Below, piece after piece: positions 6,333-12,937 of a stretch of 27,271 bases of DNA. The stretch covers positions 1-27,271 of the IMG/VR virus record IMGVR_UViG_3300031741_000015; one strand, given 5' to 3'. Numbering within the stretch: position 1 is the first letter of the stretch; every line of letters starts with the position of its first letter. The DNA is from a virus. Below the pieces are notes generated by a model. It worked only from the letters and a program-made list of their open reading frames with translations, searched no databases and was not told where the DNA came from. Position numbers and translations under genes: made by a program.

Positions 6333-7424
6333 ATGAAACTTATCCCAACCGAGATTGAAGCCACCAAGACTTTTTTCTCCACCCTTTTTGCAAGAAGAAT
6401 CCCAAATGTTATTTTATTTAAAGATCGAGATTTTCAAGTTTTCACTACGGTGACTCTGGAAAATATTTCAAGAGATTTTTTAGAAATTAATGATGTGGTG
6501 CACACTGTTTTCATAGATAAAAATAAGACAAAATATTTTTCGACTATATTATGGGAAGACCTACTTTTACCTCTTAAAAATCACGATTGTTTTCTCCTTG
6601 GAATTAAACTAATGACGTTTATAAATAAGTGCAGAAAGGAGAAAAAACAAACACTCGAATTAAAAATTATTAATAATAAAATATTTGCAATTTCAGAAGA
6701 ATCTAGGTTCGAATGTGGGTATATTTTATCAGGTCTTAATGCTGAAAAGTTTTTCAATTTAGCTATCTCTGAGAAGCCCGATAAGATCTTCCTAACCGAA
6801 GAGATTTCGTTAGCGAATATTGATAATTCTAAACTTTCATTTTTGAAGATATCCAGTCGAGATTTAGCTTTTAACATAGCTGTTGTCAATGGATATAACA
6901 CGATAAATAAAAAAATAATTTGCGATGATAGTAAGATAACTTTTCTAGCCCAAAGAGACCAGCAACTTTTTAGATATATTATAAAAAGCATAACCCCAAC
7001 TGTTAGAGTTTTTACATATTTACCTAAAAATATTTTTGTTGCTTTTAAGGATATTCCTAAAGAAAAAAGACTCATGGTTTCGGGATCTAGAACCTTTAAC
7101 GATAGAGAATTATTGTTTAAAGAATTAGATAAATTAGATTTTGATATACTAGTGAGTGGTGGGGCTAAAGGAGCAGATAGGTTAGCTGAAGATTACGCTG
7201 AGAGTCATAATAAAAAAATAGAGCAATATCTTCCGGATTGGGATACTCACGGTAAGAAAGCTGGTATTCTAAGAAATGTAGAGATGCTTAAAAACTGTGA
7301 TAGGTTTATTGCGTTTTGGGAAAATAAAAGTCCTGGAACCAAACATGCTATAGAAACAGCTAGAAAAAATAAAGATAGATTTAAATTCATTAAAATAATA
7401 AATGTTGGAGGAAACAATGTTTGA
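6333..7424 (+). CDS. SLOG (DUF2493/YspA-like) protein with unknown N-terminal domain
   Basis: Residues about 246-355 form a SLOG-superfamily Rossmann domain of the DUF2493 type. Signature positions are V-S-G-S-R-T-F at 249-255, S-G-G-A-K-G-A-D at 275-282, D-W at 302-303, R-N at 314-315, A-F-W at 327-329 and G-T-K-H at 335-338. SLOG domains bind nucleotides or nucleotide-derived ligands and are common in phages and in defence loci (family knowledge). The first 240 residues are not recognised; they look beta-rich, and their length is that of a sliding clamp, a resemblance too weak to call. TGGAG precedes the ATG. It is the first gene of the plus-strand operon and overlaps the next gene by eight bases. 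A ligand-sensing or modifying enzyme is the best guess. Confidence 0.8.
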   Translation: MKLIPTEIEATKTFFSTLFARRIPNVILFKDRDFQVFTTVTLENISRDFLEINDVVHTVFIDKNKTKYFSTILWEDLLLPLKNHDCFLLGIKLMTFINKCRKEKKQTLELKIINNKIFAISEESRFECGYILSGLNAEKFFNLAISEKPDKIFLTEEISLANIDNSKLSFLKISSRDLAFNIAVVNGYNTINKKIICDDSKITFLAQRDQQLFRYIIKSITPTVRVFTYLPKNIFVAFKDIPKEKRLMVSGSRTFNDRELLFKELDKLDFDILVSGGAKGADRLAEDYAESHNKKIEQYLPDWDTHGKKAGILRNVEMLKNCDRFIAFWENKSPGTKHAIETARKNKDRFKFIKIINVGGNNV

Positions 7425-8853
7425 AAAAACAGATGATGATTGGGAAAAAACGATTTACGATGCTAAGAAAAAAGAAGACTTATTATCTCAAAAGAATATT
7501 ACTAAAAACCTCCCTACTGAGAAAGCTTTAAATATTTCTAAGTTCTGTAAGGTTTTTACTGGGGACCTAGAAGAAGTTCTACAGACAATAGAATCAGAAA
7601 CTCAAGACGATGAAGGTTTGGAAGAAGCTATTAAAGACAATAACTCGTATACCAATAACCTGTTGTATTCTTTATACCACGGGCTCCATACAGCTCAATG
7701 CGGCTGGTTAAAAGAAACTTTAAAACTCATTAAGGCTGATAACGTAAAGTTAATCAAAAGTATCGAAGGTCTCACAGACACTATAACTAGAGGAACTTCT
7801 TTTAATAATTCTCCAGAGCTAAGTGGGGCTAGAGCAAAGGAAACTTTGATTGCTAGAACTGGCGGAGTGATGAAGGTCTATCTTTTCAATAGTGGGTTTT
7901 GGATAAACGTTAGATCTCTAAATTTATCAGAATTAAATTCTTTTTACGATACTGTCGATATCAACGGCAAAGAATTCGGTAAGATATTAGGAGGTCATTC
8001 ATACCTACTATATGACAATTTCATTAAGCAGCAATTCTGTGATTTTATTCCAAAAATGGTTTTGAGTAGTAATCTTAAAGACTGGCATAAGAAGTCTAAT
8101 CTTCTTAATAAAATATCATTTCACGACTACCCAACTATCTTATGGGCAGCCTGTTGTATGCTTTTCAAACGAGGTTTAGAAATAGGTGTCGTGTGTTCTA
8201 ATCAAGAATGTAAACATATTGAAAATAATACAAAACTCGATATTAAAAAAATGAGAGTGACTAACTTCGACGCTTTAAGCGAAACTGCCATCACAATGCT
8301 AAGATCTGATGATGAGAAATCGACTAAAGACATTGAAGCATATAAGAAAGAGTTAAACTTAACTGAAGAATTTAAACACTCTAATTTTAAAATAACAGCC
8401 AGCGTCCCATCTATAGGGGAATATCTAAAGATCTCTAATGAATTAACAAGCTCATTAATAAATGCTCTAAGAGGAGAACCTAATTTAGATAATAAAGAAA
8501 TTATTTCAATGATAGCCATATATTTCTATCCGACTTTAGCTCCATGGATAAGTAAGTTGACCTTTCTTAAACCGGACGATTCAATTGATTTCTTCACTAA
8601 GGACACGTCAGTTATCTTGAATTTTTTAGTTGGGTATAAAAGAACAGAAGAGAAAGATGTAGAAGATCTATTCGTGGATAAGTTTCAAGACTTTATTAAG
8701 AGATCTAGATTATCTTTAATATGCTCACAGCCTCTCGAATGTCCAAAATGTCATAAAGGGATAGAAACGGAAGATGATCTTTTTCCACTGGATTTACATG
8801 AATTGTTTTTTATGATTACCTGTCGTCAATTAGAGATCGGGGGTTCGCTCTAG
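7417..8853 (+). CDS. Zinc-binding baseplate-type protein, zero-frame product
   Basis: The start at 7417 is chosen over an in-frame ATG at 7402 because TTGGAGGA lies just before it; it overlaps the previous gene by eight bases. The 478-aa product has two Cys pairs that could hold zinc: C260-x4-C265 within RGLEIGVVCSNQEC and C442-x2-C445 in a CPKC. The second is followed by L-D-L-H-E-L-F-F at 458-465. A Cys-rich ribbon followed by an acidic/Phe-Phe segment recalls the T4 gp26-type baseplate hub proteins of myophages; this is a pattern resemblance, not a proven match. The last 13 zero-frame residues after F465 look unlike the rest, and the natural continuation lies in the -1 frame (8802-9206). 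It therefore probably makes a short and a long form, or the sequence lacks one T. Confidence 0.65.
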   Translation: MFEKTDDDWEKTIYDAKKKEDLLSQKNITKNLPTEKALNISKFCKVFTGDLEEVLQTIESETQDDEGLEEAIKDNNSYTNNLLYSLYHGLHTAQCGWLKETLKLIKADNVKLIKSIEGLTDTITRGTSFNNSPELSGARAKETLIARTGGVMKVYLFNSGFWINVRSLNLSELNSFYDTVDINGKEFGKILGGHSYLLYDNFIKQQFCDFIPKMVLSSNLKDWHKKSNLLNKISFHDYPTILWAACCMLFKRGLEIGVVCSNQECKHIENNTKLDIKKMRVTNFDALSETAITMLRSDDEKSTKDIEAYKKELNLTEEFKHSNFKITASVPSIGEYLKISNELTSSLINALRGEPNLDNKEIISMIAIYFYPTLAPWISKLTFLKPDDSIDFFTKDTSVILNFLVGYKRTEEKDVEDLFVDKFQDFIKRSRLSLICSQPLECPKCHKGIETEDDLFPLDLHELFFMITCRQLEIGGSL

Positions 8854-9206
8854 AAGAGTACAAAGCTAGGTTCGGAAAATTCACCAAGCTGCTAAATACA
8901 TCGACAGGTTTCCTTAAAGATTTGGGGTTTAATATTTTTAACGACACTCACGACAACGGCGAGATTCGTGATGACGCTTCCCCTTATCGACATATTAAGT
9001 TTTATGAAAAAAATATAAGTAGAGATATTTTCTCATTTAGAAACATTATAGAACTCTGCGCGAGTGAGGAAAATATAGAATTTTTTAAATTCTCACCGAC
9101 TGACGTTCTTAAAATGGATTTCGATACGTACGTATTCTTACAAGAATTAACTGAAGAATATTCAAATATAAGAAAGAACCTTAAAGACGAAGGAGAAGAT
9201 GGATGA
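8802..9206 (+). CDS. C-terminal part of the baseplate-type protein in the -1 frame
   Basis: This frame is open from just after a stop at 8799-8801 to the TGA at 9204-9206 but has no ATG or GTG start and no ribosome site; the first TTG (8922) also has none. Reading from the T-run it continues naturally as Tyr-Asp-Tyr-Leu-Ser-Ser-Ile-Arg, then a charged helical segment, with the upstream 62 bases overlapping the zero-frame gene. The simplest reading is one protein of about 600 aa made by a -1 shift at G-TTT-TTT (8805-8811), or by slippage in the six-T run. About 130 residues are encoded after the shift point. The end overlaps the next gene as ATGA. It has no domain that I recognise by itself. 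Confidence 0.65.
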   Translation: MVFYDYLSSIRDRGFALEEYKARFGKFTKLLNTSTGFLKDLGFNIFNDTHDNGEIRDDASPYRHIKFYEKNISRDIFSFRNIIELCASEENIEFFKFSPTDVLKMDFDTYVFLQELTEEYSNIRKNLKDEGEDG

Positions 9207-9777: not shown

Positions 9778-11541
9778 ATGGACAGTGGGTTATTAGTTTT
9801 AAATTCTAATGTTGGGTTAACTAACGTTATCGAAGGAAAAAAATTAAACAAATTAATGATATCTACATTTAAAGATATTAAGAAAAAATTATCGGATCAT
9901 TGCGGGCCTTATGGTAACTTCGCTATTTTAACTGATCCTACAGACCCTACCAATACGGCTGTCCATACTAAGGACGGAATAAATATAGTAAGAAACATGT
10001 ATTACGCTAGCCCTATACAAGAATTCATTAGAAGAACTATAATGTATCTTGGGACAAAAGCTGAGAATTTAGCTGGGGATGGAACTACAGCATCTATGAT
10101 CTTTGCGGTTTCCGCTTTGGAGTATATTTTAAAGAAAAAATCCTTAGATAAATATACTTTTAATGAACTTAAAGATCTATTCGAAGATTTTTTAGAAGCT
10201 CTAGCTTGGTTATATACGGATGAAATAGTTACACTTAATGAATACTCACGCTTCTCTAAAAAGGGAGACTCTGCTGATATTGACGATATTGCTTTTTCTC
10301 AAGCATACACCTCGTCACACGGTAATGAGAAAGTTTCTAGGATAGTAGCTGAATGTTTTAGTAAAATGCCTAAAGAGACTTGGGGTTTTATTTCATGTGA
10401 AAGATCTAGATTAGAAACAACAAAAGATATATCTCTAGAGTGGGACGATTCCCAATGTTCTTTCCCTGCTTTAGCACTTAAGAATTCAATGATGAATTGT
10501 TCACAGAATTCTGCTTATGTAAGTTCTGAATGTGACTTATTGATACTCCCATTCGAACCTACCGAAAGACAATTCATATATTCTTATTTTAATAAGTTTT
10601 TAGACGATTATGATAACGAAAAAGATTTAGTTATTATAGTACCCACAGCGACTAGTTGTCAATTACAAACTAAACTAGATGCTTTTTCAGAAAAAAATAA
10701 TAAAGTAGCTATTTTTAAATATTTCATTTCTCATCAGGAACTTCCAGAGTTAGAATGCCTTACTCTTTTAAGCGGATTCGAAAAAAAGGATATGTATTCT
10801 AAACTCTTAATCAAAAGAGGTGTTGATGTATCTTATAGGGATAAGACAATTAGATTTAAGAATCTATACCCAGGTACTGATGATATTATAAATCCGCTAA
10901 GTAAAGTTGGAGATATAGCAGAAACTCTTAAGGACATTACTCAATGTATAGAGTTAGAGCAGATGGATAACGCTAATGTTGGAAATAGTAAAAAAGTTAT
11001 TAGTCTTAAAAAATATTACCTTAAGTTATTCCTACAGAAAAGATGTAAGATAATCATAGGTGGAGCAGCTCACGATAATAGCGCTCTAGTTGATCCGGTT
11101 CAAGATACTATAATAGCTGTTTATAATACTCTCACTAACGGCTTTGTATTTTCTCAAAATTATAGCTTAAGAAGAGCTTTAACTAGAGTTAAAACTACCA
11201 ATCCCGAATTTAAAGTTTTCGCTAAAGCTTTCCTATATTCCATAGACGAGTATAGAAAATGTTTATTCAAGTTCAGCCCTAATGATAGCTTTAAGAAAAA
11301 GTTTAACCGTCCATTTACTATTTTTAACTTTCTAGAAAAAGAAAGTAAAAACAATATTGTAGTAAATGAGTGGAAAAAAAGAGGGACTTCTAAAATAATA
11401 GAACAGTTTTCTAAAACAAACGAACCTCTAATAATTCAACCTTCTAATATAGATTTAGCCATCCTAAAAAGATTTGCTGAAATCTCTTTGAAGTTTATTA
11501 AAAGCTCCAGAGTTTTAGTCCCTAATAGCGTAGTAAAATAA
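9778..11541 (+). CDS. groEL-like: Phage group I chaperonin (GroEL homologue)
   Basis: A 587-aa chaperonin subunit expected to form an ATP-driven folding ring for phage proteins. Key parts of the equatorial domain are present: G-P-Y-G at 43-46 (GroEL GPKG), T-K-D-G at 64-67 and A-G-D-G-T-T at 99-104. Near the C-terminus, I-I-G-G-A-A at 426-431 is followed by V-Q-D-T at 441-444, which aligns with the GroEL segment holding Asp398. All three catalytic Asp equivalents (D66, D101, D443) are thus kept. The middle, apical part (about 190-380) is hardly recognisable. The GGM-repeat tail of bacterial GroEL is absent. GroEL is about 548 aa, so this one is longer. AAAGAGGAG precedes the ATG. No co-chaperonin (GroES) gene is seen. 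Chaperonins are known in the jumbo phages EL, OBP and AR9; its place in a structural operon suggests virion clients. Confidence 0.9.
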   Translation: MDSGLLVLNSNVGLTNVIEGKKLNKLMISTFKDIKKKLSDHCGPYGNFAILTDPTDPTNTAVHTKDGINIVRNMYYASPIQEFIRRTIMYLGTKAENLAGDGTTASMIFAVSALEYILKKKSLDKYTFNELKDLFEDFLEALAWLYTDEIVTLNEYSRFSKKGDSADIDDIAFSQAYTSSHGNEKVSRIVAECFSKMPKETWGFISCERSRLETTKDISLEWDDSQCSFPALALKNSMMNCSQNSAYVSSECDLLILPFEPTERQFIYSYFNKFLDDYDNEKDLVIIVPTATSCQLQTKLDAFSEKNNKVAIFKYFISHQELPELECLTLLSGFEKKDMYSKLLIKRGVDVSYRDKTIRFKNLYPGTDDIINPLSKVGDIAETLKDITQCIELEQMDNANVGNSKKVISLKKYYLKLFLQKRCKIIIGGAAHDNSALVDPVQDTIIAVYNTLTNGFVFSQNYSLRRALTRVKTTNPEFKVFAKAFLYSIDEYRKCLFKFSPNDSFKKKFNRPFTIFNFLEKESKNNIVVNEWKKRGTSKIIEQFSKTNEPLIIQPSNIDLAILKRFAEISLKFIKSSRVLVPNSVVK

Positions 11542-11962: not shown

Positions 11963-11989
11963 AAAAAAAGAGATCTTAATCGATCTCTT
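11961..11989 (-). terminator. Leftward intrinsic terminator at the end of the hairpin region
   Basis: AAGAGATC and GATCTCTT (8 bp) enclose a six-base loop at 11968-11989, and on the minus strand the stem is followed by an eight-T run. On the plus strand there is no T-run, so rightward transcripts from the chaperonin operon probably read through. It ends leftward transcripts that carry the 44-aa gene at 12331-12465. Confidence 0.65.
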
Positions 11990-12299
11990 CTGGTTCTAGA
12001 TAGAATCTATCTAGTTACCTTTTTAGGATGTAAATTAAATAATTCATTGTCTTCCTCCCTACCATGAGAGTATTTCCTCTACTCACATGATAACATATTG
12101 AGAAACTTACCTAACTCCTACTCTTGAGAGTAGGAGTCGGGTTAAGTTCTCTTAAACTAAAAAATTTTACGCCTTGACCTAGGAAGATCCTCATGAGTGA
12201 GAACATAATCAGTGTCTATCAACCCTGTTGATAAAACCCTCGTGTCGACGAATGCTATAGTGCATCAAGCTCCCTTAGCTAGAGGGATATTGTTTTTTT
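11990..12299 (+). ncRNA. Candidate structured RNA or long 3' untranslated region
   Basis: No gene fits here, but stem-loops follow one another: CTAGATA/TATCTAG (near 12000), CATGAGAGTA with one mismatch (near 12063-12090), CTCCTACTC/GAGTAGGAG with a TTGA loop (12116-12137), which is extended outside by GAG-AACTTA/TAAGTTCTC with a bulge (about 12100-12152), TATCAAC-CCT-GTTGATA (12217-12233) and the final T-tailed stem at 12271-12299. That gives a terminated rightward RNA of about 300 nt, either a separate small RNA or the tail of the chaperonin operon. The stems read equally on the minus strand, where they would be the 3' part of the transcript of the 44-aa gene. No known RNA family or tRNA is recognised. 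Confidence 0.35.
12271..12299 (+). terminator. Rightward intrinsic terminator
   Basis: TCCCT and AGGGA pair around a seven-base loop (12271-12287), and a seven-T run follows at 12293-12299. This is the first T-tailed hairpin downstream of the plus-strand operon that ends at 11962, so it is its likely end point. Confidence 0.55.
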
Positions 12300-12330
12300 G
12301 ATTACGGGATAACAATCAACCCACTAAACA

Positions 12331-12465
12331 TTATCGACTGCGAGATAAATCATCACGGTCAGTAGGAGGTCTTGCCTTTGGACGGCATTTTCCTCGCAAC
12401 GCTCTTTTAGAACCTTTAGGTTTTCTAAAGATTGAAAAAGTTTTATTCGATGTTGTCCTAGACAT
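12331..12465 (-). CDS. 44-aa arginine/lysine-rich peptide
   Basis: A short minus-strand frame with an excellent ribosome site (AAAGGAG, seven bases before the ATG). The 44 residues contain nine Arg and six Lys against three Asp, with one Cys at 27; the C-terminal third reads R-P-K-A-R-P-P-T-D-R-D-D. Such a charge suggests binding to nucleic acid, for example RNA, ribosome or phage DNA. It is alone in a ~1 kb gene-poor spacer, has a TATATTAC box 258 bases upstream and a long structured leader between. Small basic proteins with a Pro-rich acidic tail do occur in other large phages, but I cannot name a family. The start and coding nature are well supported; the role is unknown. Confidence 0.6.
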   Translation of the reverse strand: MSRTTSNKTFSIFRKPKGSKRALRGKCRPKARPPTDRDDLSRSR

Positions 12466-12477
12466 AATAGTCTCCTT

Positions 12478-12663
12478 TAGAAATATCTTTGTTTATAACA
12501 GAGGAGAGTCCCTAACATTAGGGTTGCCGTGCTCTAACTCATTTTCTACCTGAAAATGAAACTCTCTTGTTAAGTATTAAGATAAATCTTTTATTGATTC
12601 ATAGTAGTAATGTATAACTCAAGTGGTATGATCTACACCCATTCCGATCGGGTGATTCTACTG
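12478..12663 (-). promoter_or_regulatory. Structured leader of the 44-aa gene, possible SD switch
   Basis: Reading leftward, the first domain (12617-12666) has an outer stem AACTCA/TGAGTT and an inner stem CACCC/GGGTG. The second (about 12504-12566) is a multi-branch fold with closing stem GAGAGT/ACTCTC, arm CATTTTC/GAAAATG and arm CCCTA/TAGGG. The 3' strand of that closing stem runs into TCTCCT, which is exactly complementary to AGGAGA of the ribosome site of the 44-aa gene. Forming the closing stem or pairing with the ribosome site are thus competing options, the layout of a translational switch. No known riboswitch class is recognised. Confidence 0.4.
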
Positions 12664-12722
12664 AGTTTTAATTATAAGATTTAATCCTTTAGAGTCGGTT
12701 AAACTTTTGTTTAATCATATAA

Positions 12723-12730
12723 GTAATATA
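12723..12730 (-). promoter_or_regulatory. TATATTAC promoter-like box for the 44-aa gene
   Basis: The minus strand reads TATATTAC inside a wider AT-rich patch. It lies 258 bases upstream of the ATG at 12465, and the hairpin-rich leader lies between. It is identical to the octamer at 110-117. Confidence 0.45.
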
Positions 12731-12891
12731 TAAGTAAAAATCTTCAATCTCCACTTTTGTAATTTAAGAGACGAAGGATTTAAAAGGTGCTAAAACGGCT
12801 ATCAGAAAGACTTTTTAACTACTTATTATGGGTCAAATACATAGTCCCAATACAGATGTATTGGGACACCATTGTTAACATGAATAAAGGC
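12731..12891. other. Gene-free spacer with a 24-base near-perfect palindrome
   Basis: No gene with a ribosome site is seen. GTCCCAATACA and TGTATTGGGAC (11 bp, exact) flank only two bases at 12844-12867. It may be a protein-binding site or a second hairpin behind the terminator at 12892-12930. A 20-codon minus-strand frame crosses it but has no ribosome site. Confidence 0.45.
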
Positions 12892-12930
12892 ATTTAGACT
12901 ATCTTACTCTTATAGTAAGATAGTCTAAAT
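12892..12930 (-). terminator. 17-bp perfect hairpin after the minus-strand virion operon
   Basis: ATTTAGACTATCTTACT and its exact reverse complement enclose a five-base loop, beginning eight bases after the stop of the gene at 12938-13918. On the minus strand there is no long T-run downstream, so termination may be factor-aided. It resembles the stem at 2412-2447 in length and lack of a T-run. Confidence 0.6.
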
Positions 12931-12937
12931 TTATGTT

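Follow-up and report, generated by a model that had tools for sequence, protein, structure and literature searches.

Does the broken reading frame at positions 7417-9206 of the viral fragment studied here represent one gene whose two frames are joined by a -1 frameshift, two genes translated independently, or a single frame interrupted by an error in a run of Ts? The fragment is a 27,271-base virus record from IMG/VR (IMGVR_UViG_3300031741_000015), and we refer to its whole length as the window. The original prediction read the locus as a probable -1 shift, arising from ribosomal or polymerase slippage, that joins two frames of a baseplate-type protein, and kept a missing T as the alternative. 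We compared the locus with its relatives in phage genomes and metagenomes, and examined the codon choice, the selective constraints and the predicted fold of the encoded proteins.

The two frames in the window

The features of the locus are as follows:

7417..8853, plus strand: short-product gene (zero frame); PHROG 4585, phiKZ gp77-type; predicted short tail assembly chaperone
8740..8751, plus strand: CPKC motif shortly 5' of the slip site, aligning with the CPxC of relatives
8805..8811, plus strand: slippery heptamer G_TTT_TTT, coding for the conserved Phe-Phe
8811..9206, plus strand: -1 frame, 131-aa C-terminal extension of the predicted long product (~596 aa), ending at TGA 9204-9206
9203..9206, plus strand: ATGA, in which the -1-frame stop overlaps the start codon of the following, RNase H/Rv2179c-like gene

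The zero frame spans 7402-8853 and opens at ATG 7402, though the better start is ATG 7417, which has GGAGG upstream and yields a product of 478 aa. At the site it reads GAA TTG TTT TTT ATG, with TTG TTT TTT at 8803-8811, placing the G-TTT-TTT at 8805-8811 in the zero frame just as had been described; after the heptamer 13 more zero-frame codons precede TAG 8851-8853. The -1 frame is open over 8802-9206 and overlaps the zero frame, again in agreement with the earlier coordinates. Translated from the slip, it gives the 131 residues FF-YDYLSSIRDRG..., and a slip at codon 465 gives a long product of ~596 aa, close to the 600 aa foreseen alongside the 478-aa form. The claim that the -1 frame lacks a start codon and ribosome site of its own stands for the latter: no clear ribosome site is seen, but two in-frame start codons do exist 3' of the slip, TTG 8922 and ATG 9114, the second of which would leave only 30 aa.

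A 131-codon open stretch did not arise in any of 20,000 dinucleotide-Markov simulations, and thus the openness of the -1 frame exceeds chance. Its codon use is gene-like, with log-odds over 8856-9203 of +0.148, as compared to 0.214 +/- 0.045 for true genes of the window and -0.099 +/- 0.071, with a maximum of 0.093, for off-frames.

The gene lies in a neighborhood of SLOG-like, RNase H-like and GroEL-like genes, and genes for a divergent DNA polymerase, a SNF2 helicase and a putative tail tube protein also neighbor it, which is consistent with a phiKZ-like origin of the gene. No tape-measure gene was identified in the 27,271-base window. The chaperonin GroEL-like gene (9778-11541; PHROG 5725, E 1.4e-19; PF00118 just under the cut-off) is situated shortly downstream of the broken gene and the RNase H-like gene. 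Further along, about 975 bases (11963-12937) contain no ORF of at least 60 aa and fold far better than shuffled sequences on both strands (z -6.9 and -6.3); this region has no Rfam match at the gathering threshold and a weak group I intron-like match (E 0.13), and its minus strand carries an apparent small basic ORF behind an AGGAG site.

Conservation of the frame break across phiKZ-like phages

The zero-frame protein matches PHROG 4585 over residues 86-477 (E 3.6e-35). A tblastn search with it recovered 51 phage records, mostly of large-genome phiKZ-like phages, at ~18-24% identity, and a search with one of these relatives as the query recovered 197 phage records; phiKZ itself is among them, its version of the protein being PHIKZ077. 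In each of the first 12 relatives the ORF annotated downstream occupies the -1 frame, as an open frame that overlaps the gene before it, with the T run at the homologous Phe-Phe. We then assembled 94 homologous loci, comprising 22 phage entries (phiKZ included), 71 IMG/VR loci and the window; one further, truncated locus was kept outside this set. As a few loci represent the same phage in two collections, statistics were computed on non-redundant sets (87 loci).

The zero-frame stop lies 8-44 codons after the homologous Phe site, and the -1 frame is open for 131-192 codons past it, in all 94 loci; not one of the 93 related loci is a single continuous frame at the site. An error in the length of the T run, which would make the gene one uninterrupted frame with a missing T, is natural to suspect in an IMG/VR record at a typical error site, but is exceedingly improbable given that the same break occurs at the same residue in all 93 other loci, drawn from isolates and many metagenomes.

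The heptamer at the site is T_TTT_TTT in 52 loci, T_TTT_TTC in 24, G_TTT_TTT in six (among them the window and Burkholderia phage FLC9), G_TTT_TTC in four, A_TTT_TTY in two and other sequences in six. Thus, 88 of the 94 loci display [T/G/A]_TTT_TTY, and the remaining six are of the form T_TTT_NNN. These six retain T_TTT while the second slip codon has changed (to TTG, ACC, ATT, ATC or TCC), from which it appears that slippage on the first Phe codon alone may suffice. The T run itself varies from five to nine bases, with five Ts in nine loci, six in 14 (window included) and seven to nine in 71.

In all annotated relatives examined the zero frame and the -1 frame are listed as two separate genes. 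For instance, in phiKZ the products are annotated as two proteins, PHIKZ077 and PHIKZ076.4, with the same frame break. The extensions of the relatives correspond to PHROG 7580/12109/13274.

Codon choice at the slip site and selection in the -1 frame

All 87 non-redundant loci use TTT as the first Phe codon, where the Phe usage of the individual genes predicts 32.2, and in 76 of them a T precedes it, where third-position T use predicts 24.5. As the loci share ancestry, these figures measure constraint and do not represent independent trials. The excess of TTT is most marked in phages of high GC content, which elsewhere use TTC; in one example the smoothed share of TTT among the remaining Phe codons is 0.06.

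For close pairs of relatives we examined only those -1-frame codons that follow the zero-frame stop and precede the first ATG, GTG or TTG of that frame. Among seven such pairs, three of them from one trio, 44 codons changed synonymously versus 19 non-synonymously, and the substitutions fall 23/8/53 on codon positions 1/2/3. By this pattern, purifying selection acts in the relatives on -1-frame sequence upstream of every usable start codon. Single-protein and helicase-based searches of IMG/VR found no close relatives of the window; hence, selection was measured in pairs from other phages, outside the window's own lineage.

Ordinary initiation at an ATG, GTG or TTG of the -1 frame cannot translate the codons upstream of it, and this bears directly on the view, implicit in the annotation of the relatives, that the -1-frame ORF is a separate gene initiating at its own start codon. 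The listing of this ORF as its own gene, and the 201phi2-1 record, where the annotated start overlaps the upstream stop, speak for such initiation. On the other hand, the first possible start lies at least 30 bases past the zero-frame stop in 58 of the 94 loci, the TTG and ATG of the window (+68 and +260 past the stop) have no clear ribosome sites, the relatives show purifying selection in the -1 frame upstream of any start, and independent initiation would leave the codon choice at the slip site without explanation. The conserved break, the choice of TTT and the selection in the -1 frame thus make a sequencing error as well as a separately initiated gene very unlikely. In contrast, the -1 frameshift proposed originally gains strong support from the 93 related loci, in which the site and the two frames are conserved, from the Phe codon choice and from the purifying selection.

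Ribosome or RNA polymerase

Slippage of the RNA polymerase in the T run, offered originally alongside a ribosomal shift, would instead produce mRNAs translated in the other frame. The runs of seven to nine Ts in 71 of the 94 loci would suit such a process, and these phages encode their own RNA polymerases according to their annotations. However, runs of five or six Ts are short for polymerase slippage, and nine loci have only five and 14, including the window, only six; moreover, what is conserved tracks the codon phase, with TTT in frame and usually a T before it. We accordingly prefer ribosomal slippage, and regard the polymerase-based version as improbable.

Stimulators such as a downstream RNA structure or an upstream Shine-Dalgarno-like site are common in -1 frameshifting but not obligatory. 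In pseudoknot-free folding, no RNA structure downstream of the site was common to the loci (the average z was close to background, and that of the window 0.41), and we found no upstream Shine-Dalgarno-like stimulator, the motif occurring in two of 87 loci. The G_TTT_TTT of the window also departs from the ideal X_XXY_YYZ.

Predicted fold and function of the protein pair

To the extent that the frameshift yields two products, these share their N-terminal part, i.e. short and long isoforms are present at the sequence level. The AlphaFold2 model of the zero-frame protein is confident (pLDDT 81.0, pTM 0.82). Foldseek searches against viral models with it recovered first the phiKZ-like relatives and then the "baseplate hub assembly" proteins of T4-like phages (E 3.6e-5 and 8.9e-4; TM ~0.5-0.6 on the target). 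Against the PDB the same approach gave no significant match; when the PDB matches were revisited, the tail assembly chaperone of HK97 (2ob9) ranked second, with 99 of its 107 residues aligned over model residues 305-433, at a weak Z of 3.8 similar to that of unrelated entries, making this likeness of the model suggestive only.

The alignment of all 13 first members of the gp77-type family was too diverged for use as a search query. None of the 13 has a sequence match to PF12322, and hhalign of the family against T4 gp26 gave a probability of 25.7. As there is no match to the sequence model, we do not assign the zero frame to PF12322, and propose by analogy that it would work like the T4 gp26/gp51 proteins. 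Since the predicted fold resembles that of gp26/gp51-type proteins, the best reading of the pair is as a putative short and long tail assembly chaperone comparable to lambda G/GT.

It is also conceivable, though unlikely, that the frameshift is real and the protein is no chaperone but a baseplate or hub component of the virion. Names annotated in relatives do include "baseplate hub", "baseplate protein" and "baseplate hub assembly protein", and the label "baseplate-type" given to the window's protein is valid in the old T4 nomenclature of gp26/gp51; tail assembly chaperone describes it better by predicted fold and literature. Proteins of the gp26 type from T4-like phages are now seen as tail assembly chaperones, according to a passage of PMC10885494 citing Vladimirov et al. 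2022, and the HK97 chaperone is among the fold matches. Further, the 201phi2-1 record marks two neighboring gene products as found by mass spectrometry, while this protein and its downstream ORF carry no such mark.

We conclude that 7417-9206 is, with high probability, a single gene in which a programmed -1 frameshift of the ribosome gives a short and a long form of a putative tail assembly chaperone. Most ribosomes would read TTG-TTT-TTT in frame and stop at 8853, producing the 478-aa short form, while a presumed minority would slip back by one base on the T run, where the Phe-tRNA can pair anew with the overlapping triplets, and would then read the -1 frame as far as 9206, producing the ~596-aa long form with its extra C-terminal domain. 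By analogy with lambda G/GT and T4 gp26/gp51, and by fold, the part common to both forms may bind the tape-measure protein, and tail-tube subunits may be recruited by the extension that the rare long form carries.

The extension of the window

The window's extension was not recognized by the profile HMM of the family extension (1.3 bits, E 4.5), a shuffled-alignment test against the relatives' extension gave it no support (score z 1.5), and on its own it had no tblastn match and no PHROG match above chance, with PHROG 7580/12109/13274 among those searched. Its structural model is of modest confidence (pLDDT 69.8, pTM 0.44); a search with this model returned several phiKZ-like proteins of ~110-171 aa (from RP12, Psa21, Phabio and ctLnO19) in the top ten, weakly (E 0.5-3.2), and nothing useful from the PDB. 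A rather doubtful scenario is that the slip site and the short form were kept across the phiKZ-like jumbo phages while the frameshifted domain of the window was replaced by an unrelated one. If true, the frameshift would be a fixed junction that takes different tail-recruiting modules.

Implications and comparison with known systems

Among nucleus-forming jumbo phages, phiKZ and its relatives serve as main models. Within the open literature searched, we found no paper on PHIKZ077 by name, and none of the papers that pair phiKZ with tail assembly chaperones or with frameshifting appeared, mostly on the basis of title and abstract, to describe this site; the frameshift in this group has apparently not been described before, though the mechanism is ordinary and its kind already known. 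The split annotation hides a probable tail assembly chaperone and its long form in phiKZ-like phages, and recognizing the frameshift would correct gene calls across the group (197 matching phage records by tblastn), single out two proteins that would control how the tails of these phages are built, and provide a frameshift site that lacks obvious stimulators and is conserved between highly diverged sequences.

The direct relatives of the zero frame are phiKZ gp77 (PHIKZ077), together with PHIKZ076.4, and their equivalents in phiKZ-like phages, which display the same break. Lambda G/GT (PMC5009743) is alike in being a tail gene whose short frame is left by a -1 shift close to its end, with a common N-terminal part in both products; it differs in its slippery site and protein, gpG being far smaller than the 478-aa short form, and the gene described here adjoins no identified tape-measure gene. 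T4 gp26 and gp51 both match PF12322 (strongly) and PHROG 150, with gp51 bearing a C-terminal extension (PHROG 634). Besides the predicted fold match to the T4-like hub-assembly proteins, the end of T4 gp26 (...CPECGK...EFFELL) resembles the CPxC...FF of the gp77-type family just before the slip site. In T4, however, the short and long forms are separate genes, and the phiKZ-like protein is about twice as long. The codons for the Phe-Phe near the end of T4 gp26 are TTC TTT and form no long T run, which fits the use of two genes. PMC10885494, again citing Vladimirov et al. 2022, reports distinct genes for the short and the long chaperone in some T4-like phages.

The tape measure chaperone of the Felix-O1-like phage Moogle has an annotated join over AGT TTT TTC, i.e. 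T_TTT_TTC at a Phe-Phe; its short form is 133 aa and it adjoins the tape-measure gene, whereas the gene in the window has no identified one beside it, and the likeness we draw is one of slip site, with no sequence similarity claimed. Finally, the chaperones of the Vandenendeviridae use a conserved -1 frameshift with an invariant GTTTTT motif (PMC12846349), which resembles the G_TTT_TTT of the window.
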